From an uncultured Acidobacteriia bacterium (lineage in GTDB: Bacteria; Acidobacteriota; Terriglobia; Bryobacterales; Bryobacteraceae), in contig CAIVPR010000129.1 in assembly GCA_903907865.1 (NCBI GenBank), forward strand, positions 1 through 64,000: DNA of 64,000 nucleotides, given 5' to 3'. Below are positions 15,257 to 37,283 of this stretch, piece after piece (within the stretch, counting starts at the first letter, position 1; every line of letters begins with the position of its first letter). The notes below the pieces were generated by a model. The model did not search any database. It worked only from the letters and a program-made list of their open reading frames with translations, and had not been told where the DNA came from. Both the position numbers and the translations under genes were made by a program.

Positions 15257-16510
15257 CTACCGGACGGAAGCGCTCACCACCGGAGCCTTCTCGGCGAGGA
15301 GGCGTTCGATGGTGGAGGTGAACTCCTGCTTCAGCTGTGCGTTGAACTCCCCGCTGGCCGGAGCGGCAAAACCGGAGTGGATGTGGTCCACGCGACCGTC
15401 CTTGCGGACGAAAACGGTGGCAGGCCAGGTATTGAGGTTCACCAGCTGCGGCACCTTTTCCCACATTTCGGCGGGTGCTCCACCGATCAGGTAGGTGTAG
15501 GGAACCTTGTACTGCTTGATAAAGGCGCGGACGCGGGTCGGATCCTCCAACTGCTCGGGCTCCTCGAAGTCCAAGGCCACGATTTCGAGTCCCTTGTCGT
15601 GGTACTTGTTGTAGAGTTCCACCAAGTATTGAGCTTCGTCGTGGCAATTCGGGCACCAGGTCCCGGTCACGATGGCCAGAACAACCTTGTCCTTGAACTG
15701 CGAATCGTCATTGGAGCGCACTTTGCCGGCGAGGTCGGGCAGCTTGTAGGCGAAGATCTCCTTGGCGTCGCGGGCCGTGGTGTGGGTGGTGTAGTCGGCC
15801 GGGGCCGGGATGCCCTTGGCGCTGGCGACTTCCGCGCGATAGGCAAGCAACTCGCCGTCGCGGTTGCTGCCGCGCTGCAGGAGCCGCAGCGATCCATCGG
15901 CGTTCGGAATGATTTCCAACAGGCCCGGGCGGGAGCCGTCAAAATGGCTAACTACGAACTTGCCGTTCTTCCAGCTTCCGGTCAGAGCGCCGGTGTCGCC
16001 GTCGACGCGGAGGACGGTGGCGGTGGCTTCCGCGCCGTTCTGCTTCACGATCAACCTCCAAGCCTTTTCACCCTTGGGGCTTTCGTGCGGGATCACCCAG
16101 GAGCCGGCAATATTCGGGACATTGGCACCGGCGTTGTCGCCATCCACGTGGCGGCTGGCGTGGAACTCGCTGCCTTCGGGACCCTTGTCGCCGCGCATCT
16201 GGATCTTGCCGTCCAGTTGACCGTCCTTGAAGTCGGCAACAATTTTGGTCAAGTAGTGTTCCAAGTTCAGCACCAGCTTGCCGTTCTTGAAAGAAGCGTC
16301 CGTAGTGAACTCCTTGTCCTCACCGTTGTACAGGGTGCCCTTTAGGCCCGGTCCGCTGCCGGACACGTCAAGGCGGAAGGGGATGACCGTGGAGCCCACC
16401 TTGAGCGTTGCATCCCAGCGGCCCTCGGGAGTTTGAGCCGACGCGGACGCGGCGGCCACTGTCATGGCGATGGCTCCGAAGCCAAGCCGTAGTGCGAATG
16501 AGTTTTTCAT
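15257..16510 (-). CDS. Exported TlpA-like thioredoxin-fold protein, copy 1
   Basis: A 417-residue protein with a signal peptide (about 1-25), a large N-terminal beta-rich region (about 28-235; repeats of G-x-LKGTLYNGED and DGDTGALTGSW) and a C-terminal thioredoxin-fold domain (about 255-400). The redox motif is TGTWCPNCHDEA with Cys286 and Cys289; the cis-proline loop is LNTWPATVF. TlpA-type proteins reduce or isomerise disulfides outside the cytoplasm. The CPNC is followed by His290, so it also spells CXXCH. It lies 60 bases downstream of the cytochrome gene and 107 bases upstream of the PDLSG gene. An AAAGGTTG site precedes the ATG. Paralogues: 25844-27178 and two broken pieces at 31910 and 50305. 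Confidence 0.88.
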   Translation of the reverse strand: MKNSFALRLGFGAIAMTVAAASASAQTPEGRWDATLKVGSTVIPFRLDVSGSGPGLKGTLYNGEDKEFTTDASFKNGKLVLNLEHYLTKIVADFKDGQLDGKIQMRGDKGPEGSEFHASRHVDGDNAGANVPNIAGSWVIPHESPKGEKAWRLIVKQNGAEATATVLRVDGDTGALTGSWKNGKFVVSHFDGSRPGLLEIIPNADGSLRLLQRGSNRDGELLAYRAEVASAKGIPAPADYTTHTTARDAKEIFAYKLPDLAGKVRSNDDSQFKDKVVLAIVTGTWCPNCHDEAQYLVELYNKYHDKGLEIVALDFEEPEQLEDPTRVRAFIKQYKVPYTYLIGGAPAEMWEKVPQLVNLNTWPATVFVRKDGRVDHIHSGFAAPASGEFNAQLKQEFTSTIERLLAEKAPVVSASVR

Positions 16511-25843: not shown

Positions 25844-27178
25844 CTACCGGCGGGCGACCACTTCTCCGGCTACTGCCGGAAGAGCCGTCCGCTGTCCGTC
25901 GCTGGAGGCCAGAAGACGGTTGATCGTCGAAGTGAAGGTCTTCTTCAGATCATCGTTGTAGACCCCGGCCGCTGCGGAGGCGAAGCCGGAGTAGGTGGCT
26001 TTCACGCGGCCATCCTTGCCGATGAAGAGCGTGGCGGGCCAAGTGTTGAGGTTGACTACCTGCGGCACCTTGTCCCACATCTCATCCGGAGTACCCGCCA
26101 AGACGTAGGTGTACGGGATCTTGTACTGCTTGATGAAAGCGTTCACCCGAGTCCGCGAGTCCAGCTGGTCGGCCTCTTCGAAGTCGAGAGCCACAATCTC
26201 CACGCCCTTCTTGTGATACTCCTCGTAGAGCTTGGCCAGGTACTGCGCTTCGTCGTGGCAGTTCGGGCACCAGGTGCCGGTGACGATGGCGAGGACCACC
26301 TTGCCCTTGAACTTCGGATCCTCGTTCGACAGCACTTTACCGTTCACGTCGCGGAACCGCCAAGTGAATACTTCATCGGGGTTCCTCACACTGGTGTGCG
26401 TGAGGTAGTTGGCGGGCTCGGGAAGACCCTTGGCCCGAGCAACTGCGGGGCGCCATGCCGCGAATGTCTCATCGCGCGGTTCCGCCTTGAGTTTCACGAG
26501 AAGCGATCCGTCCGCCTGGGGCGTCAGATGCACGAGGCCGGGCCTCGACCCGTCAAAATGGCTCGCCACAAAACTGCCGTCCTGCCAACTGCCGGTTAGG
26601 GCGCCCGTGTCGCCGTCTACCCGCAGCACGGTGGTTTCAATCTCCGCGCCCTTCTGCTTCACAATCAGCCGCCAAGCCTTTTCACCCTTGGGAGATTCGT
26701 GGGGGATTTCCCACTGTCCGTCAATGTTGGGCACATTGGCAGCGTTGATCGGGGCTGCCGCGACGTAGCGCTTGGCGTGGAAGGCGCTCACGCGGTCGGA
26801 CGCGGTGGCCTGATAGGCCCCCGGAGTGATGTTAATGGGACTGCGGGAGGTCACAGTGACCTTCCCGTCAAGCTCGCCATCTTTCACATTGGCCGAGATG
26901 GTCGTCAGATAGTGCTCGAAAGCCAGCGACACGGCACCGTTGCCGACGCTCGCGCTGGTGGTCGTCTCCACATCCTCGCCATTGTGAAGGGTGCCGACGA
27001 CGCGGCCGTTCTTGGTCGCGATGTCCAGACGGAACGGAATGACGATGCTGCCCTGGGTAAGGGTTGCAGCCCAGCGACCGTCGAGGTTTTGTGCCTGGGA
27101 GAGGGCCACGCTGCCGAGTGAAACGGTGGCTAGAAGCAACGCGTTTCCCGAACTGTGTAAGAGCTTCTTGAGTTTCAT
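25844..27178 (-). CDS. Exported TlpA-like thioredoxin-fold protein, copy 2
   Basis: A 444-residue paralogue of the protein at 15257-16510, co-linear along the whole length. Signal peptide about 1-29; N-terminal beta-rich region about 31-260; thioredoxin domain about 275-425 with TGTWCPNCHDEA (Cys304, Cys307, His308), DFEEADQLDSRTRVNAFIKQY and LNTWPATLF. It follows the cytochrome copy 2 gene by 34 bases, reproducing the cytochrome-TlpA order of the encapsulin operon, but here the PDLSG, shell and desulfurase genes are missing and a terminator follows. AAAGGAA precedes the ATG. Confidence 0.88.
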   Translation of the reverse strand: MKLKKLLHSSGNALLLATVSLGSVALSQAQNLDGRWAATLTQGSIVIPFRLDIATKNGRVVGTLHNGEDVETTTSASVGNGAVSLAFEHYLTTISANVKDGELDGKVTVTSRSPINITPGAYQATASDRVSAFHAKRYVAAAPINAANVPNIDGQWEIPHESPKGEKAWRLIVKQKGAEIETTVLRVDGDTGALTGSWQDGSFVASHFDGSRPGLVHLTPQADGSLLVKLKAEPRDETFAAWRPAVARAKGLPEPANYLTHTSVRNPDEVFTWRFRDVNGKVLSNEDPKFKGKVVLAIVTGTWCPNCHDEAQYLAKLYEEYHKKGVEIVALDFEEADQLDSRTRVNAFIKQYKIPYTYVLAGTPDEMWDKVPQVVNLNTWPATLFIGKDGRVKATYSGFASAAAGVYNDDLKKTFTSTINRLLASSDGQRTALPAVAGEVVARR

Positions 27179-27212: not shown

Positions 27213-28721
27213 TCAGGGTTGGCGGTTGACCGCGGCAGGTGAGGCCGCGATCATGGTTGTCGAAGCTTGTTCCCGGGAGAACTGTTGCCATTCCTCCGGA
27301 AAACCGGGCTTCGTTGCGAGAAGAATCTCCAGGATGGCCCGGCGGTCCTCGCTCGACAGCGAGGAGAATTCGGGACTCCTGTCGTTGCCGCCCAGGACTT
27401 CAAACAGGCGACGGTGGATGTATGTCCTGGCCGGCTCGGGAAGCGCATCGAAGGCCTCCGAGTAGATCAGATAGCTGCACGGGTATTTGAAGATGCGTGT
27501 ACGGAGGTCGAAGTCACGCAGCGAACGACCTTGGGCGTCGCGCCGCCCCGGCGTCCCGAAATCGGCGGTGAAGCCTGAGGTGCCCTCGATCGGCTCGCGC
27601 AGCTTCTCCTCATTCGCGAACAGGAGGTAACGGACGAGTTGTTCGGCTGGCCCTTCGATCTGCTTCCGAGCAGCGTCGGAGATCGTCCCCGCCGGTTGGT
27701 TCCGCTTTTGGTCGGCAAAGAGGGCCAGCCTCGTCTGATAGTTGGTCAGCGTGATCAGGTTGTGCATCTGGGTCTGGTGGGCCAGCACCATGACCGCGAC
27801 GATGTCGCTGGAATCGGTCAAATAGCCGGATGTGTCGAGGCGTCCGTTCAGCGTCGCGAGGTTCGTGGAACCTTTGGTGTTCAGTTGCTCGGGATGCTTC
27901 GGGTCCGATATGGTCACGTTCGCCAAGCCACCCTCGCCGCCGTGCTTGGAAGTGACGTACCATCCGCCCCAGCGCTCGTTCAGGGGACTCTCGTGCCCGG
28001 TGACAAACGACTTCGAAGCCGCGTCGGGATACCCGTTCGGCCGCGTAAACACGGACTTCACGAGCACACCGGGAACACCGCGCGTCGAGCCAGCCACGTG
28101 GCACTGGATGCAGTCTACAGCCGCCCGCTCAAACCGTGGCTCGGACGATTCCTGCTCGTCCAGCACGTAGAAGATCGCGGCCTGCTTGGCATCGAATGAG
28201 ACGAATTCCAGAAACTTCCCGGCGTGCACCTGTCCGACGTAGACATCGTCGTTGAAGTACAGAGCCCTGGGTGCGGTCGGAGAGATGTCTGGAAACTGAA
28301 AGCTTGTCTTCGAGAAAACCAGCGTTTGGGAGCTCACCGGGATTCGCAAAGCGTCGAGCACGGCCTGCAGGTAGCCATGGCGCGGATCGTAGTGAAGGGA
28401 AACCTCGCCACTTTCGAGGCGCTTCTCAAGTCGCGCGATCGGATCGTTCAGTTCCGCCGAGCGGTAGTTGATCGGCGGACCCGCGAAGGGCAGGAAGCCC
28501 TGATTCTTCACGACGGCACCCGGGGTATTCCCGGTGGATTCTCCCCGCGCAGGCAACCCGCTGAAGACCATCGCAACCGCGCAAGCTCCGCAGCCAAGGA
28601 CTGCCAACCAGTGGCAACGGATGCGCCAAGACTGCGTAAATATCAAATTGCGTCGGAGCCACATCCCGGCCCTTCCAAGCGCGGTTGTTGGGCGCGGAAG
28701 AGCGGCGAACAGTGATTGCAT
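27213..28721 (-). CDS. Exported monohaem cytochrome-like protein, copy 2
   Basis: A 502-residue paralogue of the protein at 16571-17917, with a longer N-terminus (about 60 residues, including a hydrophobic stretch around 38-57 that would serve as signal or anchor). The haem motif is CIQCH (204-208). Shared blocks: VFSKTSFQ, PRALYFNDDVYVGQVHAGK, SPLNERWGGWYVTSKHG, HQTQMHNLITLTNY and DRRAILEILLATKPGFP. ATG 28721 has GGAGGA 6 bases upstream. It is first in operon C and divergent from the sulfate-binding protein gene. Confidence 0.8.
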   Translation of the reverse strand: MQSLFAALPRPTTALGRAGMWLRRNLIFTQSWRIRCHWLAVLGCGACAVAMVFSGLPARGESTGNTPGAVVKNQGFLPFAGPPINYRSAELNDPIARLEKRLESGEVSLHYDPRHGYLQAVLDALRIPVSSQTLVFSKTSFQFPDISPTAPRALYFNDDVYVGQVHAGKFLEFVSFDAKQAAIFYVLDEQESSEPRFERAAVDCIQCHVAGSTRGVPGVLVKSVFTRPNGYPDAASKSFVTGHESPLNERWGGWYVTSKHGGEGGLANVTISDPKHPEQLNTKGSTNLATLNGRLDTSGYLTDSSDIVAVMVLAHQTQMHNLITLTNYQTRLALFADQKRNQPAGTISDAARKQIEGPAEQLVRYLLFANEEKLREPIEGTSGFTADFGTPGRRDAQGRSLRDFDLRTRIFKYPCSYLIYSEAFDALPEPARTYIHRRLFEVLGGNDRSPEFSSLSSEDRRAILEILLATKPGFPEEWQQFSREQASTTMIAASPAAVNRQP

Positions 28722-28833: not shown

Positions 28834-28860
28834 TTGTCTACTAGATAGGTCTAGTATAGG
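28834..28860. promoter_or_regulatory. Candidate operator of operon C (paired GTCTA elements)
   Basis: Plus-strand TTGTCTACTAG (28834-28844) and GGTCTAGTATAG (28848-28859). On the minus strand the TAGACC and TAGACA cores are 13 bases apart, exactly as at 17995-18025 upstream of the encapsulin operon. A TATACT that could act as a -10 for the minus strand is part of the site. Confidence 0.45.
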
Positions 28861-29036: not shown

Positions 29037-29054
29037 ATACTAGTCTACTAGACA
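29037..29054. promoter_or_regulatory. Candidate operator of the sulfate-uptake operon D
   Basis: ATACTAGTCTACTAGACA (29037-29054) is a compact near-palindromic version of the same element, 45 bases before the GTG start of the sulfate-binding protein. The 377-base divergent gap 28722-29098 holds no gene. Confidence 0.4.
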
Positions 29055-29098
29055 GATGGAATATAAGGTGTTACGATGACAGACGTCAAGGAGAAAAC

Positions 29099-30139
29099 GT
29101 GGGAACCCGACGACAAAGCGCCTTCTGGCTCAACCTGCTGGCTCTGGCCGCGGTGGCCCTATCGGCGGCGCTGGTCGTCACGGGCAACGCCGACACGGGC
29201 AATTCGAACCAGATCCTGAACGTCTCGTACGACTCGACACGCGAGCTGTTCCAGGAGTTGAACCAGCAGTTCACGGCCAAGTATCTGAAGGAGACCGGGC
29301 GCAAGTGGGGCATTCAGCAATCCCACGGTGGCTCGTCGCGCCAAGCCCGGGCCGTGGTAGATGGCCTCCGGGCGGATCTGGTCACCCTCGGGCTGTTTCC
29401 CGATGTCGACTTGCTGCGCAGGCGCGGCCTCATTGCAGAGGGCTGGAGCCAGCGTCTTCCGAACGATTCGCGACCGTTCACATCTACCATCGTTTTCGTG
29501 GTTCGAAAAGGCAATCCGAAGCACATCCGCGACTGGCCAGATTTGATAGGCCGGGATGTTTCCGTCATTACGCCGAACCCGAAGACCTCGGGCAACGGAA
29601 AACTCAGTGTGCTGGCGGCGTGGGGCCAGGTGATCCGCCGGGGCGGCACCGAGGCGCAGGCCCGCGACTACTTGGTCCGTCTCTATCGGAACGTCCCCGT
29701 CCTCGGTTCCGGCTCGCGCGACGCCACAGCCACTTTTGCCTATGACAATGTCGGCGACGTGCATCTGACTTGGGAGAGCGAGGCGCTGTTCGAAACAGAG
29801 GCGTCGGGCGGCGAACTGGAAATCGTCTATCCGCCGGTGAGTATTCTGGCTGAACCGGCGGTGGCCTTGGTGGACGCGAACGTCGCCGGCACGCGCAAGG
29901 AGTCGTTCACGAAGGCCTATTTGCGGTATCTGTTCACTGATCAGGCGCAGGAGGTCATCGCAAGGCATGGGTACCGGCCAGTGAACGCCGAGGTACTGCG
30001 CCGCTATTCCCATCGCTTCCCGGCAATCGATTTGTTCCCCGCAACGCTGCTCGGCAAAGACTGGAATGAGATCGGCCTGAAATTCTTCGCCGACAACGGG
30101 ATTCTTGATTCGATCCCCTTGGAACGGGCTGCGTCATGA
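29099..30139 (+). CDS. sbp: Periplasmic sulfate-binding protein (Sbp/CysP family)
   Basis: A 346-residue solute-binding protein: hydrophobic export segment (about 8-30), then the Sbp pattern LNVSYDSTRELFQELNQQF, QSHGGSSRQARAVVDGLRADLVTLG and, further on, ITPNPKTSGNGK and TFAYDNVGDVHLTWESEAL. These are the sulfate-contact blocks of Sbp/CysP. The start is GTG 29099 with AAGGAG 5 bases upstream; upstream in-frame codons cross the regulatory site. It normally delivers sulfate to a CysTWA ABC transporter, but no CysT, CysW or CysA is here; the next gene, overlapping by 4 bases, is a SulP permease. Confidence 0.9.
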   Translation: MGTRRQSAFWLNLLALAAVALSAALVVTGNADTGNSNQILNVSYDSTRELFQELNQQFTAKYLKETGRKWGIQQSHGGSSRQARAVVDGLRADLVTLGLFPDVDLLRRRGLIAEGWSQRLPNDSRPFTSTIVFVVRKGNPKHIRDWPDLIGRDVSVITPNPKTSGNGKLSVLAAWGQVIRRGGTEAQARDYLVRLYRNVPVLGSGSRDATATFAYDNVGDVHLTWESEALFETEASGGELEIVYPPVSILAEPAVALVDANVAGTRKESFTKAYLRYLFTDQAQEVIARHGYRPVNAEVLRRYSHRFPAIDLFPATLLGKDWNEIGLKFFADNGILDSIPLERAAS

Positions 30140-31908
30140 TCTTTCGGCGAAACTACTCGTGGTCCGACCTGCAGAACGACCTGCTGGCAGGTGTCACGGT
30201 GGCGGCAATCTCGCTGCCTCAGGCGATGGCTTACGCTCTTATCGCCGGGGTCGATCCCCGTTTCGGCCTCTATTCGGCAATTGTGGTGACACTGGTCGCA
30301 TCCGTCTTCGGATCGTCTTCCCACCTGATCAACGGGCCCACGAACGCCGTCTCGCTGGTGGTCTTCAGCGCCCTCGCCTTCTTCGATCCCGAAGCCCGCT
30401 TCGACGCGTATCAGGGCATGTTTCTTCTCGGAATCATGGTCGGCGCAGTGCAGATCCTGATTGCGGTGTTCAAGCTGGGCGACCTGACGAGGTACATCTC
30501 GGAGTCGGTCGTGCTTGGTTTCATGACCGGGGCGGGCTTCCTGGTGGCGCTGGGGCAGGTCGGCAATCTGGTTGGCCTGCGCGACAAGGGTACGGGCCAC
30601 ATGCACGTGCTCTATCGCTTCTGGCTGACGGTTACGCAGGACGCGCACGTGGACCCGCGCGCTGTCGGAATCGGGACCGGCACCATCGTGCTGGCCGTCG
30701 CGTTGCGCAGCGTGGCGCGGAAATACCGGCTGCCCCAGGTGGACATGTTGGTTACGCTGATCGCCACAACATGGATCGCCACCAGCCTTGGGTGGTCCCA
30801 ACCGGGCGCGGCTGGAAAGGCTGCCCTTGCGGTGGTTGGAAATGTCCCGGCTACCCTGCCGAAACCGCATATCCCTGAAATCCAGTTTTGGTGGATCCGC
30901 GAAATGTCGGGCAGCGTGCTGGCTATCGCCTGCCTGGGGCTGCTGGAGGCGCTCGCCATCTCGAAATCAATCGCCCATGAGACACGCCAGACGCTCGATT
31001 TCAACCGCCAATGCCTTGCCGAAGGTCTCGCGAACCTGACGGGGGGCTTTTTCCAGTGCCTGCCCGGGTCCGGCTCGCTCACCCGCTCCGCGATCAATTT
31101 CCAAGCGGGCGCAGTCAGCAGGATGTCGGGCATTTTTGCGGCCGGGTCGGTGGCAATCGTGCTGGTGCTGTTCGCGCCGCTGATGCGGTACGTGCCCCGT
31201 GCGGCGTTGGCGGGGTTGCTCATGGTCACGGCATCGCGACTGGTCGACTGGAAACGGCTGCGTTCCGCTCTGGGCGCTTCCGGATATGACGCCAGTCTGG
31301 TGGCGTTGACGGCGTTTGCCGCGGTGTTCATCAGCGTGGAGTTCTCGATTCTGATTGGAGTTGGCGTCTCGATCCTGCTGTTTGTGCCCCGTGCCGCGCG
31401 GCTCCGGGGGGCCGAACTCATAGTGAGCGAAGACCGCGTGGTGCGCGACCGGCTGCCGTCCGATCCGGATTGCACGGGCATGATCATTTTCGATTTCGAA
31501 GGGGAGTTGTTTTTTGGGGCGTCGCCCGAGCTCGACGGCCATTTCGCCGGTCTTGAGCGACGCGTGCGCGACGAGGGAATTCGCTGCATCGTGCTGCGGG
31601 TGAAAGGCACCAGCAACCCGGATATGGTCTGCATGGAGCGCTTTCGTCATTTCATCCAGGGAATGGAGCGGCGGGGCGTCTTCGTCCTCCTCTGTGGCGT
31701 CCGTCCCGACTTCGGGCGGGTGATGAAGAACATGCGCTTCGGCGAAGTGCTGCCGGACTCGCGCGTCTTCCGCGAGGAGCCGACCCTCTATTCATCGACC
31801 CAGAAAGCGGTCCGCCACGGCTACGATCTCATGGGCGACGCGGACTGCGAGCATTGCGCCCGACTGCAGGTGTCGGAAGCAGCACACGATCTGTACTACC
31901 AAGTCTGA
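30136..31908 (+). CDS. SulP family inorganic anion permease with STAS domain
   Basis: A 590-residue permease. The N-terminal SulP signature (LLAGVTVAAISLPQAMAYALIAGVDPRFGLYS, read as two overlapping blocks) is complete; about twelve hydrophobic segments run to about residue 420; the C-terminal STAS domain (about 440-560) has DPDCTGMIIFDFEGELFFGAS and RCIVLRVKG. SulP proteins move sulfate or bicarbonate by secondary transport. The start ATG overlaps the sulfate-binding protein stop (ATGA, 30136-30139). The coupling to Sbp suggests sulfate as the substrate. Confidence 0.92.
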   Translation: MIFRRNYSWSDLQNDLLAGVTVAAISLPQAMAYALIAGVDPRFGLYSAIVVTLVASVFGSSSHLINGPTNAVSLVVFSALAFFDPEARFDAYQGMFLLGIMVGAVQILIAVFKLGDLTRYISESVVLGFMTGAGFLVALGQVGNLVGLRDKGTGHMHVLYRFWLTVTQDAHVDPRAVGIGTGTIVLAVALRSVARKYRLPQVDMLVTLIATTWIATSLGWSQPGAAGKAALAVVGNVPATLPKPHIPEIQFWWIREMSGSVLAIACLGLLEALAISKSIAHETRQTLDFNRQCLAEGLANLTGGFFQCLPGSGSLTRSAINFQAGAVSRMSGIFAAGSVAIVLVLFAPLMRYVPRAALAGLLMVTASRLVDWKRLRSALGASGYDASLVALTAFAAVFISVEFSILIGVGVSILLFVPRAARLRGAELIVSEDRVVRDRLPSDPDCTGMIIFDFEGELFFGASPELDGHFAGLERRVRDEGIRCIVLRVKGTSNPDMVCMERFRHFIQGMERRGVFVLLCGVRPDFGRVMKNMRFGEVLPDSRVFREEPTLYSSTQKAVRHGYDLMGDADCEHCARLQVSEAAHDLYYQV

Positions 31909-31909
31909 G

Positions 31910-32529
31910 GTGGAAAACGGTGCGCTGACGCTAAACTTCGACAGCTATGCGTCGACCCTGAAGGCCACGGTGAAGGACGGTGCCATTACGGGCGATTAGG
32001 TCCAGCGGTGCAGCAAAAGGGAGCGGAGGTTTCCGCCGCGATCCTCCGCATCGATGGCGACACGGGAACGCTGACGGGCGGGTACAAGGACGGCAAATTC
32101 GTTCTCAGCCATTTCTCCGGCGCGCGCCCGTCACAGGTATTTCTGACGCCCCAGGCCGATGGAACGATCACCCTTGAAGTGAGTGGCCAGCACCATGAGG
32201 GTGCCGTAATCGGATACCGCCCGGAGACGGCGCGCGCCAAAGGCCTGCCGGAGCCGAGCGACGCCGACCAACACACGGAAGTGAAGGACCCGTCGCAGCC
32301 CTTCACTTTCAGCTTTCCCGACCTGAACGGACAGCTAGTTTCCAACACCGACGCCCGCTTCCACAACAAGGTGGTCCTGATCAACATCACCGGCAGTTGG
32401 TGCCCGAACTGCCACGACGAAGCTCCGTTTCTGGCCGAGCTCTACCGCAAGTACCACAAGCAGGGCCTCGAGATCGTTGCCTTGTCCTTCGAGGAAGGTC
32501 TGCTCGCAAACAAGCTCTCCGCGAAGTAA
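31910..32529 (+). pseudogene. Broken TlpA-like gene, copy 3 (N-terminal and central part)
   Basis: Right after the SulP stop, a reading beginning at GTG 31910 gives VENGALTLNFDSYAST and KDGAITGD, matching residues about 75-105 of TlpA copies 1 and 2, then hits a stop at 31999. In another frame (from GTG 32008) homology resumes about 65 residues further on (QQKGAEVSAAILRIDGDTG) and runs through the intact redox motif GSWCPNCHDEA to EIVALSFEE, then ends abruptly at 32529. The signal peptide, an internal part and the whole C-terminal third are missing. The missing C-terminal third matches the fragment at 50305-50601. Confidence 0.8.
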
Positions 32530-32600: not shown

Positions 32601-33521
32601 TCAAATCTGGTAGTCGAAAGAACCGCTGTCGGGCGTGCTCTTGGGAGTCACCCTCACTTTGGTCGCCTCGGAGACCACGAGCGAGTTTTCCGGAACGCTG
32701 CTGGTGAGGAAGACGTTTGCGCCGATGGTGGTGCCCGCCCCCACGACCGTATCGCCACCTATGATGGTTGCCCCGGCGTAGACCGTCACGCGGTCGCCCA
32801 GGGTCGGATGGCGTTTCTGTCCGCGCAGCGCCTGCCCCGCCGCCAATGACCTGGCCACCAGGCCAACGCCCTGATACAGCTTGACGTGGCTTCCGATCAC
32901 AGCCGTCTCGCCCACCACCGTTCCGGTGCCGTGGTCGATAAAGAAGTGCGTGCCGATGCGCGCACCGGGATGGAGGTCGATTCCGGTACGAGAGTGCGCC
33001 CATTCCGTCATGATGCGTGGAATGAGCGGGATGTTCTCGAGGTAGAGTTCGTGCGCGAGCCGCTGCACCGAAATCGCTTCGATGCAAGGATAGGCGACAA
33101 TCACTTCGTCCCGGCTGAAGGCGGCGGGATCGCCCGAGAAGGCGGCGTCAGTGTCCGTGCGGAGCAATTCCCGGACCCTCGGCAGGTTGCCGAGGAACCG
33201 GCGGGTGAGCGCGGCAGCCGCTTCAGGCGGTTCCGCGTCGCCCCGTTGGGCGGAGGCGGCATACCGGAGGCTCTTGCGGATCTCGGTCTCCAGACGGGCA
33301 AGGACACTGTGCAGCATGGCCCCGGCGACATCCTCCATTTCGGAGGAGTGGACGGGCTTCTCGTCGAAGAATCCGGGGAACAAGAGACGCAGGAGGTCGG
33401 TCGCGATTGCGGCGACGGCGTGCTTCGACGGCAGGTTTCTGCCATCCACGTGATTGGTCCCGCCCACGCGCTGATACGAGGCCAGCAGACGTTCGGTCAA
33501 TTGGGCAACTGTTAACGACAC
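32601..33521 (-). CDS. cysE: Serine O-acetyltransferase (EpsC/CysE family)
   Basis: A 306-residue enzyme that makes O-acetylserine from serine and acetyl-CoA, the committed step to cysteine. An alpha-helical N-terminal part (about 1-165) is followed by the left-handed beta-helix with hexapeptide repeats: IDLHPGARIGTHFFIDHGTGTVVGETAVIG, read in pieces, then GDRVTVYAGATIIGGDTVVGAGTTIGANVFLTSSVP. The catalytic Asp-His (IDHG) and active-site HPGA are present. Length fits the longer EpsC type. Start is GTG 33521. It is 72 bases from the ssu genes and transcribed the same way, but without overlap. Confidence 0.92.
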   Translation of the reverse strand: MSLTVAQLTERLLASYQRVGGTNHVDGRNLPSKHAVAAIATDLLRLLFPGFFDEKPVHSSEMEDVAGAMLHSVLARLETEIRKSLRYAASAQRGDAEPPEAAAALTRRFLGNLPRVRELLRTDTDAAFSGDPAAFSRDEVIVAYPCIEAISVQRLAHELYLENIPLIPRIMTEWAHSRTGIDLHPGARIGTHFFIDHGTGTVVGETAVIGSHVKLYQGVGLVARSLAAGQALRGQKRHPTLGDRVTVYAGATIIGGDTVVGAGTTIGANVFLTSSVPENSLVVSEATKVRVTPKSTPDSGSFDYQI

Positions 33522-33593: not shown

Positions 33594-34313
33594 CTACACC
33601 TCCATCACATGGCCAAGCACGGACTGCACGAGGCCGGAGAATGCCGGATTGGAGCGGTCGCGGGGTCTGGGCAGGTCGACCAGCCACTCGTCTTCGGCAT
33701 GCCCCCGTTTTAGAAGGACGATCCGGTCAGCCAGCGCCACCGCCTCCTCCACGTCATGGGTGACAAGGATGGTTGTCGCGCCGGACTGGTGCCAGAGCGA
33801 CTCGATCAACCCCTGCATTTCGAGCCGAGTTAGCGCGTCGAGACTGCCCAAGGGCTCGTCCAACAGCAGCAAGCCGGGGTTGGCAGCGAGGGCGCGCGCG
33901 AGTGCCACCCGTTGTTTTTGACCGCCAGACAAGATCGCCGGCCAGTCCCGGATCCGGTCCGCGAGGCCGACACGGTCCAACATGTCGCGAACCCGTCCGT
34001 CATTGTCCTTGGGAAGACCAAGCGCCACGTTGTCGCCCACCCGCAGCCAAGGCAGCAACCGGCCATCCTGAAACACCATGCGAGCCGAAGAGCACAAGCC
34101 GATAAGGACCTCCCCCGAAATCTGGATGGAGCCGCGCTCCGCCCGGTCGATGCCCGCCAGCAGACGCAGGAGGGTACTCTTGCCGCAGCCACTACGACCG
34201 ACGATGACCACGAACTCCCCTGGCTCGGCGTGGAAGTTCAGATCCCGCAGGACAACCTTCGCGCCGAACTGCCGGTGCAGGTTCGCAGCCTCGACGGCGA
34301 CACCCGTACTCAC
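33594..34313 (-). CDS. ssuB: Aliphatic sulfonate ABC transporter ATP-binding protein
   Basis: A 239-residue ABC ATPase: Walker A GRSGCGKST, Q-loop FQDGRLLPW, signature LSGGQKQRVALARAL, Walker B LLLLDEPLGSLD and the switch histidine in LVTHDVEEA. Closest by pattern to SsuB/TauB. It starts at GTG 34313, which overlaps the SsuC stop by 4 bases (GTGA). Last gene of the ssuA-ssuD-ssuC-ssuB operon. Confidence 0.9.
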   Translation of the reverse strand: MSTGVAVEAANLHRQFGAKVVLRDLNFHAEPGEFVVIVGRSGCGKSTLLRLLAGIDRAERGSIQISGEVLIGLCSSARMVFQDGRLLPWLRVGDNVALGLPKDNDGRVRDMLDRVGLADRIRDWPAILSGGQKQRVALARALAANPGLLLLDEPLGSLDALTRLEMQGLIESLWHQSGATTILVTHDVEEAVALADRIVLLKRGHAEDEWLVDLPRPRDRSNPAFSGLVQSVLGHVMEV

Positions 34314-35098
34314 GCGCCTTCCCCCGGCAAGGCGGCAGGCAGCGCCACCGCGTGTGCCGGGTGCCACGGCAACAGCCGCCGCTCCAGCCAGCGGGCCACG
34401 CTGTCGGCGAGCTTGCCTAGCAGCGCATAGAGCAGGATGCTCAGCACGACCACGTCCGTTCGCAGGAACTCCCGCGCATTCATGGCGAGATAGCCGATTC
34501 CGCTGGTGGCGGCGATGGTCTCGGCAACGATCAGGGTCAGCCACATGACGCCCAAGGCATAGCGGACCCCGATCAGGATGGACGGCAACGCACCCGGCAG
34601 GAGAACCTTTCGGAACAGGTCCCAGCGTCCCAAGCCGTAAACCCGGGCCATCTCTATCAACCCCGAGTCCACGGTCCGCACGCCATGGTGCGTGTTGAGG
34701 TAGATCGGAAACAGCACGCCGAGAGCGACCAGAAAGATCTTGGCAGCCTCCCCGACTCCGAGCCAAAGAATCACCAGCGGAATGAGAGCCAGGTGGGGTA
34801 CCGTCCGGAGCATCTGGACACTGCCGTCGATCAGGTCCTCGGCAATGCGCGAAGAGCCGGTCAGGATTCCCAGCAGCAGGCCGATACCGCCGCCTATCGC
34901 AAAGCCGACCGCGGCCCTTTGCGCGCTGATCGCGATGTGGCTGGCAAGTTCGCCCGACGCCCCGAGATGCCAGCCTGCAGCCAGAACCGCCGCGGGCGTG
35001 GGGAGCACCCGATTTGAAAGCCAGCCGACGCTACCTGAAACCTGCCAAAGCAAGAGCAGCGCCAGCGGAACCAGCCACGGAATGAGCTTCCTCCTCAT
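34310..35098 (-). CDS. ssuC: Aliphatic sulfonate ABC transporter permease
   Basis: A 262-residue inner-membrane permease with about six helices and the BPD_transp_1 EAA-type loop (about 155-185, EMARVYGLGRWDLFRKVLLPGALPS, in two parts), typical of SsuC/TauC. Overlaps SsuD upstream by 4 bases and SsuB downstream by 4 bases, so the operon is tightly coupled. Confidence 0.9.
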   Translation of the reverse strand: MRRKLIPWLVPLALLLLWQVSGSVGWLSNRVLPTPAAVLAAGWHLGASGELASHIAISAQRAAVGFAIGGGIGLLLGILTGSSRIAEDLIDGSVQMLRTVPHLALIPLVILWLGVGEAAKIFLVALGVLFPIYLNTHHGVRTVDSGLIEMARVYGLGRWDLFRKVLLPGALPSILIGVRYALGVMWLTLIVAETIAATSGIGYLAMNAREFLRTDVVVLSILLYALLGKLADSVARWLERRLLPWHPAHAVALPAALPGEGA

Positions 35099-36219
35099 CT
35101 GGAACTATTGGCGGCACCCGGAATAATCGCGTTGCCGACCACCTCCCCCAGCCGGTCGGCATCCGGCCCGCGCGATAGGTTCAGGTGCGGGAAGACATGC
35201 TCGGCGAAGTGATAGGCCTCCTCGAGGTGCGGATAGCCGGACAGGATGAACGTGTCGATCCCGAGCGCTGCGTACTCCTGCATCAAAGCTGCGACCGTGG
35301 CGCCATCTCCGACCATCGCGGTTCCCGCGCCACCCCGAACCATACCGACGCCGGCCCACAGATCCGGCCGGAGCCAGGGACCTTCCCGCCCGCCGCGTTG
35401 GAGGTCGAGGATGCGCTTCTGGCCCTCCGAATCGAACTTCGCCAGGAGCTTCTGCCCGGCGGCGGCCATCTCCGGCGTGACATGTTGAACCAGCTTCTCG
35501 GCATCGCGCCGGGCGTCGGCGACCGTGTCGCGCACGATGACGTGGAACCGGATGCCGAAGCGCAGTTCCCTGCCCGCTTCCGCAGCGGCTTGGCGCATCA
35601 GCGCGATCTTCTCGGCGACCTGTTGCGGCGGCTCGCCCCACGTCAGGTAGAAATCCACATATTTGGCGGCAACCTTCATCGCCGCTGGAGACGAGCCCCC
35701 GAAGTAGAGGGGGATGTGCGGCTGGAACGGCTTGAAGAGATCCCGCGCGCCCCGGACGCGCAGGTACTTGCCATCGTGGTCCACCGTCTCGCGGCGATCC
35801 AAACCGCCCCAGATATCAAGGAACTCGTCCGCCTGGGCGTAGCGTTCGTCGTGCGGGAGGAACAGGCCATCCCCCTCAAGCTCTTCCGTGTCACCGCCGG
35901 TGACGATGTTGATCAGGATCCGGCCCCGCGTTTGGCGGTCGAAGGTGGTGGCCATGCGGTACGAAACCGTGGGACTCACCAGGCCCGGGCGCACTGCCAC
36001 CAGGAACTTCAGCCGCTGCGTGACCGCCGCCAGTCCCGACGCAGTCACCCACGCGTCTTCGCAACCGCGTCCGGTGGGGAGCAGGACCCCCTCATAGCCA
36101 AGCGTATCGGCAGCCCTCGCGATCTGCGAGTAGTAGTCGAACGTGGCGGGCCGTCCGCCCGTGGTGGTACCTAGAAAGCGTCCGTCGCCGTGCGTCGGTA
36201 TGAACCAGAAAACATTCAT
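35095..36219 (-). CDS. ssuD: FMNH2-dependent alkanesulfonate monooxygenase
   Basis: A 374-residue luciferase-like (bacterial TIM-barrel) flavin monooxygenase that cleaves the C-S bond of alkanesulfonates to an aldehyde and sulfite. SsuD features: N-terminal MNVFWFIPTHGDGRFLG, LPTGRGCEDAW (the cysteine of the SsuD active site region), RGRILINIVTGGDTEELEGDG and a C-terminal FILSGYPHLEEAYHFAEHVFP. Length is normal for SsuD. The flavin reductase SsuE is not encoded in this window, so reduced FMN must come from elsewhere. It lies 11 bases after ssuA. Confidence 0.93.
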   Translation of the reverse strand: MNVFWFIPTHGDGRFLGTTTGGRPATFDYYSQIARAADTLGYEGVLLPTGRGCEDAWVTASGLAAVTQRLKFLVAVRPGLVSPTVSYRMATTFDRQTRGRILINIVTGGDTEELEGDGLFLPHDERYAQADEFLDIWGGLDRRETVDHDGKYLRVRGARDLFKPFQPHIPLYFGGSSPAAMKVAAKYVDFYLTWGEPPQQVAEKIALMRQAAAEAGRELRFGIRFHVIVRDTVADARRDAEKLVQHVTPEMAAAGQKLLAKFDSEGQKRILDLQRGGREGPWLRPDLWAGVGMVRGGAGTAMVGDGATVAALMQEYAALGIDTFILSGYPHLEEAYHFAEHVFPHLNLSRGPDADRLGEVVGNAIIPGAANSSR

Positions 36220-36230
36220 CTTGATGGCCT

Positions 36231-37184
36231 CTATTTTGAAGCAGGCTCAAGGACCGCTTTCCGGACGTCGATATGTTTGGGCAACAAGCCCAGTTCCAAA
36301 TACCGATCCGCCAGAGACTGCTGCGACGCGATCAGGTCTTCCGTGATCGGCTCGGTCTCGTAGCGATTCCGACGCGACTCGGCCAGAGCCACGGCCGCGA
36401 CCGGGATTCCAGTCTCGTCGGAGAGGAACTTGTTGACCTCGCCGGGACGCTGTTTGGCCCACACCTGCATGTTGCTGAGTTCCGTCAGGAAGTCCTTCAG
36501 CAACTGGGGATGGCCTTCGACGAAGCTCCGCGAGGCAAGGTAAAACTCACGGCTCTCCACGTAGCCTTTGCCGGATGTGAGCGCGCGGTAGCCGCCGGTC
36601 TGTTCACCAGCCGCGAGATACGGGTCCCAGATCGACCATGCATCGATGGAACCGGCTTCGAGAGCGACCCGCCCGTCGGCGGGAGGGAGATAGACCGGAA
36701 CGATGTCCGAGAACGAAAGGCCGTTCTTTTCCAGATAGCGCAGCACCATGGTATGGGCGCTGGTGCCCTTTCCGAAGCCGACACGGCGGCCCCGGAGATC
36801 GGCGGGCTTTTGGAGCTTGGAGTCGCTCTTCACCAAGATGGCCGAACTATCGGGACTGGAAGACGAGACGGCGAAGTACACGAAAGGGATATCGGCAGCC
36901 TGGGCGAACAGAGGCGGGGAATCCCCGGCGTGGCCGATGTCGATGCTGCCCGCGTTCATCGCTTCCAGCAAGGGTGGTCCAGCGGGAAATTCCGTCCATT
37001 CGACACGGACTCCCTTCGGCTCGAACGCCTTGGCAAGTTCGCCCGACGCCTTCAGGATGGAAATGGTACCCCATTTCTGGTACCCGATGCGCAGCGTCTG
37101 CTTCGGAGCGTCAGCCTTGGGCGCGCAACTCTGAAGGACTGCGAAGGGTACAAGTGACAACAGCAGAGATGTTCGGCGCTTCAC
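36231..37184 (-). CDS. ssuA: Aliphatic sulfonate-binding lipoprotein
   Basis: A 317-residue solute-binding protein of the SsuA/TauA (NMT1-like) fold, with a lipobox-like VLQSC near residue 20 and the pattern LRIGYQKWGTISILKASGELAKAF, WTEFPAGPPLLEAMNAGSIDIGHAGDSPP, read in pieces, and GSIDAWSIWDPYLA. The GTG at 37184 is chosen because GGAGGAG lies 7 bases before it; the upstream ATG 37202 has no ribosome-binding site and contains that sequence. First gene of the ssu operon, after a terminator for cyanophycinase. Confidence 0.9.
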   Translation of the reverse strand: MKRRTSLLLSLVPFAVLQSCAPKADAPKQTLRIGYQKWGTISILKASGELAKAFEPKGVRVEWTEFPAGPPLLEAMNAGSIDIGHAGDSPPLFAQAADIPFVYFAVSSSSPDSSAILVKSDSKLQKPADLRGRRVGFGKGTSAHTMVLRYLEKNGLSFSDIVPVYLPPADGRVALEAGSIDAWSIWDPYLAAGEQTGGYRALTSGKGYVESREFYLASRSFVEGHPQLLKDFLTELSNMQVWAKQRPGEVNKFLSDETGIPVAAVALAESRRNRYETEPITEDLIASQQSLADRYLELGLLPKHIDVRKAVLEPASK

Positions 37185-37245
37185 TGTTTGGCTCCTCCAC
37201 ATGTCTCGGTGGATTGTTCCAGCATAGTGCATCGGTAAGCCGGAA

Positions 37246-37283
37246 GGAGCCGCCACGGTTCCAAAACGGTTCCTGGCGGCTCC
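37246..37283 (-). terminator. Hairpin terminator of the cyanophycinase gene
   Basis: A 10-bp stem (GGAGCCGCCA at 37246-37255 with TGGCGGCTCC at 37274-37283), with extra pairing inside the loop (GGTTCC/GGAACC), lies between the cyanophycinase stop and the ssuA start. Confidence 0.6.

Follow-up and report, generated by a model that had tools for sequence, protein, structure and literature searches.

The window analysed here is a 64,000-nucleotide stretch of DNA from an uncultured Acidobacteriia bacterium, and two adjacent genes on its forward strand form the locus of interest. The first gene, sbp (29099..30139, +), starts with GTG and codes for an Sbp-family sulfate-binding protein of 346 amino acids (TIGR00971, 331.6 bits). 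A ribosome-binding site, AAGGAG (29088..29093, +), lies five bases before the GTG, and codons 3-30 (29105..29188, +) encode a predicted membrane-anchor helix, a hydrophobic segment between a W-L-N motif and N30. The second gene, sulP (30136..31908, +), starts with ATG and codes for an SLC26/SulP permease with a STAS domain (590 amino acids; PF00916, PF01740). The stop codon of sbp (TGA, 30137-30139, +) and the start codon of sulP are joined in a start-stop overlap, ATGA, of 4 bases (30136..30139, +). The gene pair is read directly from the DNA, and the 4-base overlap claimed in the original prediction was confirmed.

A perfect palindrome, ACTAGATAGGTCTAGT (ACTAGA-N4-TCTAGT; 28840..28855, +), lies 5' of sbp and is the sole exact match in the window. 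A second, ACTAG-rich site (29039-29052) is also found in the divergent region 5' of sbp. It is possible, judging from sequence alone, that the two sites are operators of a sulfur regulator. In addition, ACTAGAC is present 5' of the Sbp-SulP pair in two other loci (L043 and L047). The gene divergent from sbp (27213-28721, -) codes for a protein of 502 amino acids with a haem motif, IQCHV (CxxCH), and this protein had no Pfam or NCBIfam match.

On the other side, the pair is convergent with a run of serine acetyltransferase and ssuBCDA genes, which we regard as context. The serine O-acetyltransferase (32601..33521, -) is not part of the transporter; it scored under the cut-off of TIGR01172 (144.6 bits) and also under that of the EpsC model NF041874 (142.6 against 150). 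Serine O-acetyltransferase leads to cysteine synthesis. The ssuB, ssuC, ssuD and ssuA-like sulfonate-scavenging genes (33594..37256, -) were identified by profile matches, for instance to SsuC (NF008470, 375 bits, cut-off 347) and SsuD (NF001939, 543 bits, cut-off 510), and the ssuA-like product is an NMT1-type binding protein. Meanwhile, three thioredoxin/TlpA-domain proteins of the same type are encoded in the window (25844-27178, -; 31909-32529, +; 15257-16510, -). The copy directly 3' of sulP (31909-32529) appears truncated, and a homologue of these proteins adjoins the pair in another genome, G009 (L031, 278-1507).

The Sbp of the window passed the cut-offs of TIGR00971 (331.6 bits against 155.5) and of the sulfate-type model PRK10752 (325 against 288), whereas its score with the thiosulfate-type CysP model (295) was under the cut-off of 308. 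Its AlphaFold2 (AF2) model (pLDDT 93) best matched 1SBP in the PDB, with a TM-score of 0.95 by target and 47% identity. Furthermore, the alignment showed that D11, S45, S130, G131 and W192 of 1SBP, which we take to be its sulfate ligands, are retained in the pair Sbps. Beside the anion site, the clade of pair Sbps has the signature SGNGKL, including a G132-to-N change, whereas the others have SGGARW. As a separate observation, one pair Sbp (L049 4952-5920, equal to G032:C26:7629-8603) has lost 11 residues, the HGGS loop with the ligand Ser45 among them; it sits on a long branch, and the neighbouring SulP is intact. The deletion and the long branch suggest, again from sequence alone, a possible decay of Sbp function in this locus.

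The SulP of the window scored over the gathering scores of both PF00916 (283.5 bits) and PF01740 (STAS, 30 bits), and under the cut-off of TIGR00815 (343.5 against 380.45). Its AF2 model (pLDDT 84) resembles the transmembrane domains of BicA and SLC26Dg (TM-score 0.85-0.87 by target, rmsd 3-4 A) and is also close to AtSULTR4;1, and it met the criterion of a 7+7 UraA-type fold. In their folds, Sbp and SulP are thus both ordinary representatives of their families. In AtSULTR4;1, the residues Gln112, Tyr116, Ser390, Arg393 and Glu347 are needed for sulfate binding and proton coupling. The corresponding residues of the window SulP are Q29, Y33, S314, R317 and E271, and all five are invariant in the 48 aligned members of the SulP clade. 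The presence of these symport residues is shown. The SulP of the pair is most likely an H+/sulfate symporter of the AtSULTR4;1 type, with proton coupling and uptake inferred from the residues.

The window genome is 7.5 Mb and 98.3% complete, and it encodes a single Sbp. The original prediction had stated that CysT, CysW and CysA are missing. None of the three was found near the sbp-sulP pair, and CysT and CysW are also absent from the genome as a whole, where the TIGR00969 profile search yielded nothing over the cut-off of 240. The top TIGR00969 match (149.7 bits) is a ModB-type permease, which is followed by a ModC-type ATPase, and a CysTWA elsewhere in this genome was therefore rejected. Two more SulPs are encoded in the genome; they are distant (28% and 26% identity), and neither has an adjacent Sbp. 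In addition, three PF01507 proteins (PAPS-reductase/CysD family) were found, and they would be compatible with sulfate assimilation in this organism.

To look for adjacent Sbp-SulP pairs in other genomes had been proposed in the original prediction. Scanning one genome per species yielded the 80 closest SulP loci (52-80% identity), many of them from isolates. These loci span at least six phyla, and their taxa include Acidobacteriota, Verrucomicrobiota, alpha-, beta- and gammaproteobacteria, Cyanobacteria, Mycobacterium and Binataceae. An Sbp gene lies directly 5' of sulP on the same strand, with a gap of -4 to +83 nt, in 71 of the 80 loci, and 22 of these 71 pairs overlap or abut by 1-4 bases. 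The junction is as tight in two genomes, G009 and G032, as it is in the window. Among the mycobacteria, a pair-type SulP was found in 32 of 198 genomes, and the pair was present in all 28 stretches that were read, from 26 genomes. By comparison, none of the 34 control SulPs from outside the clade (29 from the window and related genomes, 5 from plasmids) had an Sbp within about 1.5-3 kb on either side. Thus, chance adjacency can be ruled out, and the conservation of the pair is shown. Among plasmids, the only SulPs recovered were distant ones. No Sbp-SulP fusion was found in the 71 loci or in the 28 mycobacterial stretches; the long open frames of the mycobacteria proved not to be fusions. The original prediction would have been refuted by a cysTWA elsewhere together with an unconserved pair, and both parts of this refutation fail.

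The absence of CysTW is not restricted to the window genome. CysTW is encoded in 36 of the 49 genomes that have the pair-type SulP clade. Twelve of the 49 have no CysTW match; the pair occurs in eight of these 12, or in nine such genomes once that of the window is counted. However, completeness figures among the pair genomes were available only for G000 (98%) and G032 (93%), and thus the absence in the other genomes rests on repetition. The genomes with CysTWA as a rule have a second Sbp, which is 31-50% identical to that of the window; it is often in the cysTWA operon, and many copies are on the same contig, a few hundred bases from cysT or cysW. Across phyla, most pair Sbps share 50-70% identity with the window Sbp. 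In relatives from the Bryobacteraceae, most Sbps head sbp-cysT-cysW(-cysA) operons. One 14-kb contig of G009 has both the Sbp-SulP pair and a separate complete sbp-cysTWA with a different Sbp. This contig (L031 1-14010; G009:C119) is a sulfur island, on which the pair is accompanied by a family 2A encapsulin, a cysteine desulfurase and the complete porin-sbp-cysTWA operon.

The result of phylogenetic analysis showed that the pair Sbps formed one clade (SH-aLRT 100, stem 0.6), apart from the CysTWA-associated Sbps, including the second Sbp of the same genomes. Three rows of this clade were not classed as pairs: one repeats the locus L084, and the other two come from contig ends, an Sbp (L183) and a fragment (L185). 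In the SulP tree, a branch (support 97) separated the pair and solo SulPs from all controls. Branch support is given as SH-aLRT values of a rapid search, and long rows were flagged by the program. For 47 partners, the pairwise Sbp distances correlated with the pairwise SulP distances (r = 0.81; maximum of 2000 permutations, 0.19). Furthermore, both trees grouped Methylovirgula (L053) and Acidocella (L107) with the mycobacteria, which is taxonomically odd; the same odd grouping in both trees indicates that the pair moves as a unit. The reciprocal clades are shown, and together with the 71 of 80 loci they satisfy the criterion that a secondary carrier has its own binding protein, to which it is genetically coupled. 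Meanwhile, the criterion for a TRAP system, membrane parts of the DctM and DctQ type, was not met, and the sole membrane partner is the PF00916 SulP.

The N-termini also separate the two kinds of Sbp. An AxA site was found in only 4 of 67 pair Sbps versus 23 of 37 CysTWA Sbps, and a lipobox in 1 of 67 versus 6 of 37; the window Sbp has neither. The N-terminus of the pair Sbps reads W-[LVI]-N, a hydrophobic stretch and then (K)-N, and N30 is present in 92% of them versus 2% of the CysTWA Sbps. However, the length of the hydrophobic run did not discriminate an anchor from a signal peptide (median 16 versus 15), and only the missing AxA or lipobox and the conserved N30 separate the pair Sbps from the CysTWA Sbps. 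The AF2 model of the window Sbp has a single helix at residues 3-30. The missing cleavage site is shown. From the lack of AxA and lipobox, the W-[LVI]-N...N30 pattern and the AF2 helix, we infer that nearly all pair Sbps have an uncleaved N-terminal membrane anchor, and we have no cleavage or anchoring data.

Nine of the 80 SulPs have no adjacent Sbp. Four of these nine (L039, L041, L042 and L044) are from Acidobacteriaceae genomes that have the SulP and neither an Sbp nor CysTW. Since the SulP is retained in these four genomes without any Sbp, strict dependence is doubtful and the carrier can persist alone; the dependence of SulP on Sbp is probably not absolute. The missing Ser45 loop in the Sbp of the related G032 likewise speaks against strict dependence. 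The solo SulPs in Acidobacteriaceae look like the result of secondary loss of Sbp in one lineage, which seems the likely history on the sequence evidence. Another solo locus, L097, has Sbp remnants and a broken SulP. We also considered whether the clade-specific SulP residues mark a face for docking of Sbp. These residues were not enriched on the periplasmic side (11/88 versus 46/271 in the transmembrane part), and the solo SulPs keep the periplasmic ones, so nothing marks a docking face and this idea is unsupported.

The recurrent neighbours of the pair are genes of sulfur scavenging, including a family 2A encapsulin with a cysteine desulfurase (about nine loci), Ssu genes and serine acetyltransferase. 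A previous study reported that sulfate starvation induces the family 2A encapsulin in the cyanobacterium S. elongatus (PMC8049743). No sulfate-specific ABC permease was a recurrent neighbour across the pair loci. In addition, a beta-carbonic-anhydrase-like frame lies directly 5' of SulP in L039 and L044 and 5' of Sbp in L040. This frame might be a relative of carbonyl sulfide hydrolase and not a true carbonic anhydrase.

We propose that sbp and sulP form one sulfate-uptake system, a SulP assisted by a binding protein. This is the likely reading, and there are no transport, binding or interaction data. Sbp would be held at the outer face of the inner membrane through its N-terminal helix, an anchoring in the cell that is inferred, and the tethered protein would capture sulfate at low concentration. 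The sulfate-loaded Sbp would then dock onto SulP and load the carrier; both docking and transfer are inferred. SulP would move sulfate inward, most likely with protons, and this coupling is likewise an inference. The pair would be a high-affinity importer without an ATP pump for use under sulfur limitation, and the gain in affinity is also inferred. One of two readings in the original prediction was that Sbp hands sulfate to SulP. It is supported by the conservation of the pair and the absence of CysTW, and the handover itself has not been shown biochemically.

Three other explanations should be considered. First, Sbp, tethered to the membrane, could sense sulfate or act as an accessory and regulate SulP or a sulfur regulon without handing over sulfate. 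The predicted anchor and the fixed partnership would suit a sensor equally, SulP survives without Sbp in one Acidobacteriaceae lineage, and the change from SGGARW to SGNGKL next to the anion site could alter affinity. However, the protein lacks an output domain, no signalling gene is conserved in its neighbourhood, its 1SBP fold and ligands are preserved, and a pure sensor need not accompany the carrier through transfers between phyla. We regard this explanation as unlikely. Second, Sbp could serve a remote ABC transporter (CysTWA or a Mod permease), with SulP as an independent carrier in the same starvation operon. CysTW is indeed encoded in 36 of the 49 SulP-clade genomes, and the window genome has a ModB-type permease and ModC. 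However, CysTW is absent from the window genome and eight other pair genomes, the CysTWA genomes generally own a second, different Sbp, the pair Sbps form a separate clade, and a sulfate-type ABC permease is not a recurrent neighbour. This was the other reading in the original prediction, and it is disfavoured by the lack of CysTW here and by the pair-specific Sbp clade; we consider it very unlikely. Third, it is just as improbable that the coupling is real and the physiology different, with another oxyanion (thiosulfate, selenate or bicarbonate) as substrate: the carbonic-anhydrase-like frame 5' of SulP (L039, L044) or Sbp (L040), the many anions transported by the SulP family and the G132-to-N signature speak for it, but the sulfate-type Sbp models were over their cut-offs and the CysP thiosulfate model was under, the ligands are retained, and the neighbours belong to sulfur assimilation.

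An Sbp ordinarily supplies an ATP-driven pump, whereas here, across dozens of bacteria that are unrelated, its partner is a SulP permease. Under the preferred reading, a binding-protein-assisted SulP, the pair would likely be a high-affinity sulfate importer of an undescribed kind, free of an ATP pump, with its function inferred. No description of Sbp with SulP was found in the open-access literature searched, which did not include subscription journals or preprints, and this is not proof of novelty. If the reading is true, it would explain sulfate scavenging by bacteria without CysTWA, many of which come from peat and soil. It also bears on annotation: database models name the pair Sbps "ABC transporter substrate-binding", and the cell may have no such ABC transporter. 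As of 2025, TRAP, TTT and TAXI-GltS were the only named secondary carriers using a soluble binding protein (PMC12344293), and the authors of that study called for more classes so that the need for an elevator mechanism could be tested. Sbp-SulP would, if true, be a further class, in a family with human SLC26 and plant sulfate transporter relatives.

Among the known systems, the SulT ABC transporters (CysP/Sbp-CysTWA, TC 3.A.1.6) share with the pair the binding-protein family, with 47% identity to 1SBP and the same sulfate ligands. However, the pair has no CysT, CysW or CysA, its partner is a SulP, its Sbp belongs to a separate clade, and this Sbp lacks an AxA signal peptide or lipobox and has a predicted uncleaved anchor. 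The SulP/SLC26 carriers (TC 2.A.53; AtSULTR4;1, BicA and SLC26Dg) have PF00916 and STAS, the 7+7 fold, and the sulfate-site and proton-coupling residues in common with the pair SulP. However, the known members are described as operating without a binding protein, and the pair SulPs are a distinct clade in which the TM7-TM8 loop has an insert of 5-6 residues and the loop between TM5 and TM6 has the motif WLT. In TAXI-GltS of Bordetella pertussis, a new class of 2025 that was argued from translational coupling, fusions and ligand binding (PMC12344293), translational coupling likewise links a binding protein to a secondary carrier from an unrelated family. The binding-protein family, carrier and substrate differ, and fusions are known there whereas none was found for Sbp-SulP. 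TRAP and TTT are also binding-protein-dependent secondary uptake systems, but their membrane parts are DctQM or TctAB and not SulP, and they use other binding-protein families. By analogy, Sbp-SulP may follow the same logic as TRAP, TTT and TAXI-GltS, with an ABC-type binding protein and a carrier of the SLC26/SulP family as its components.
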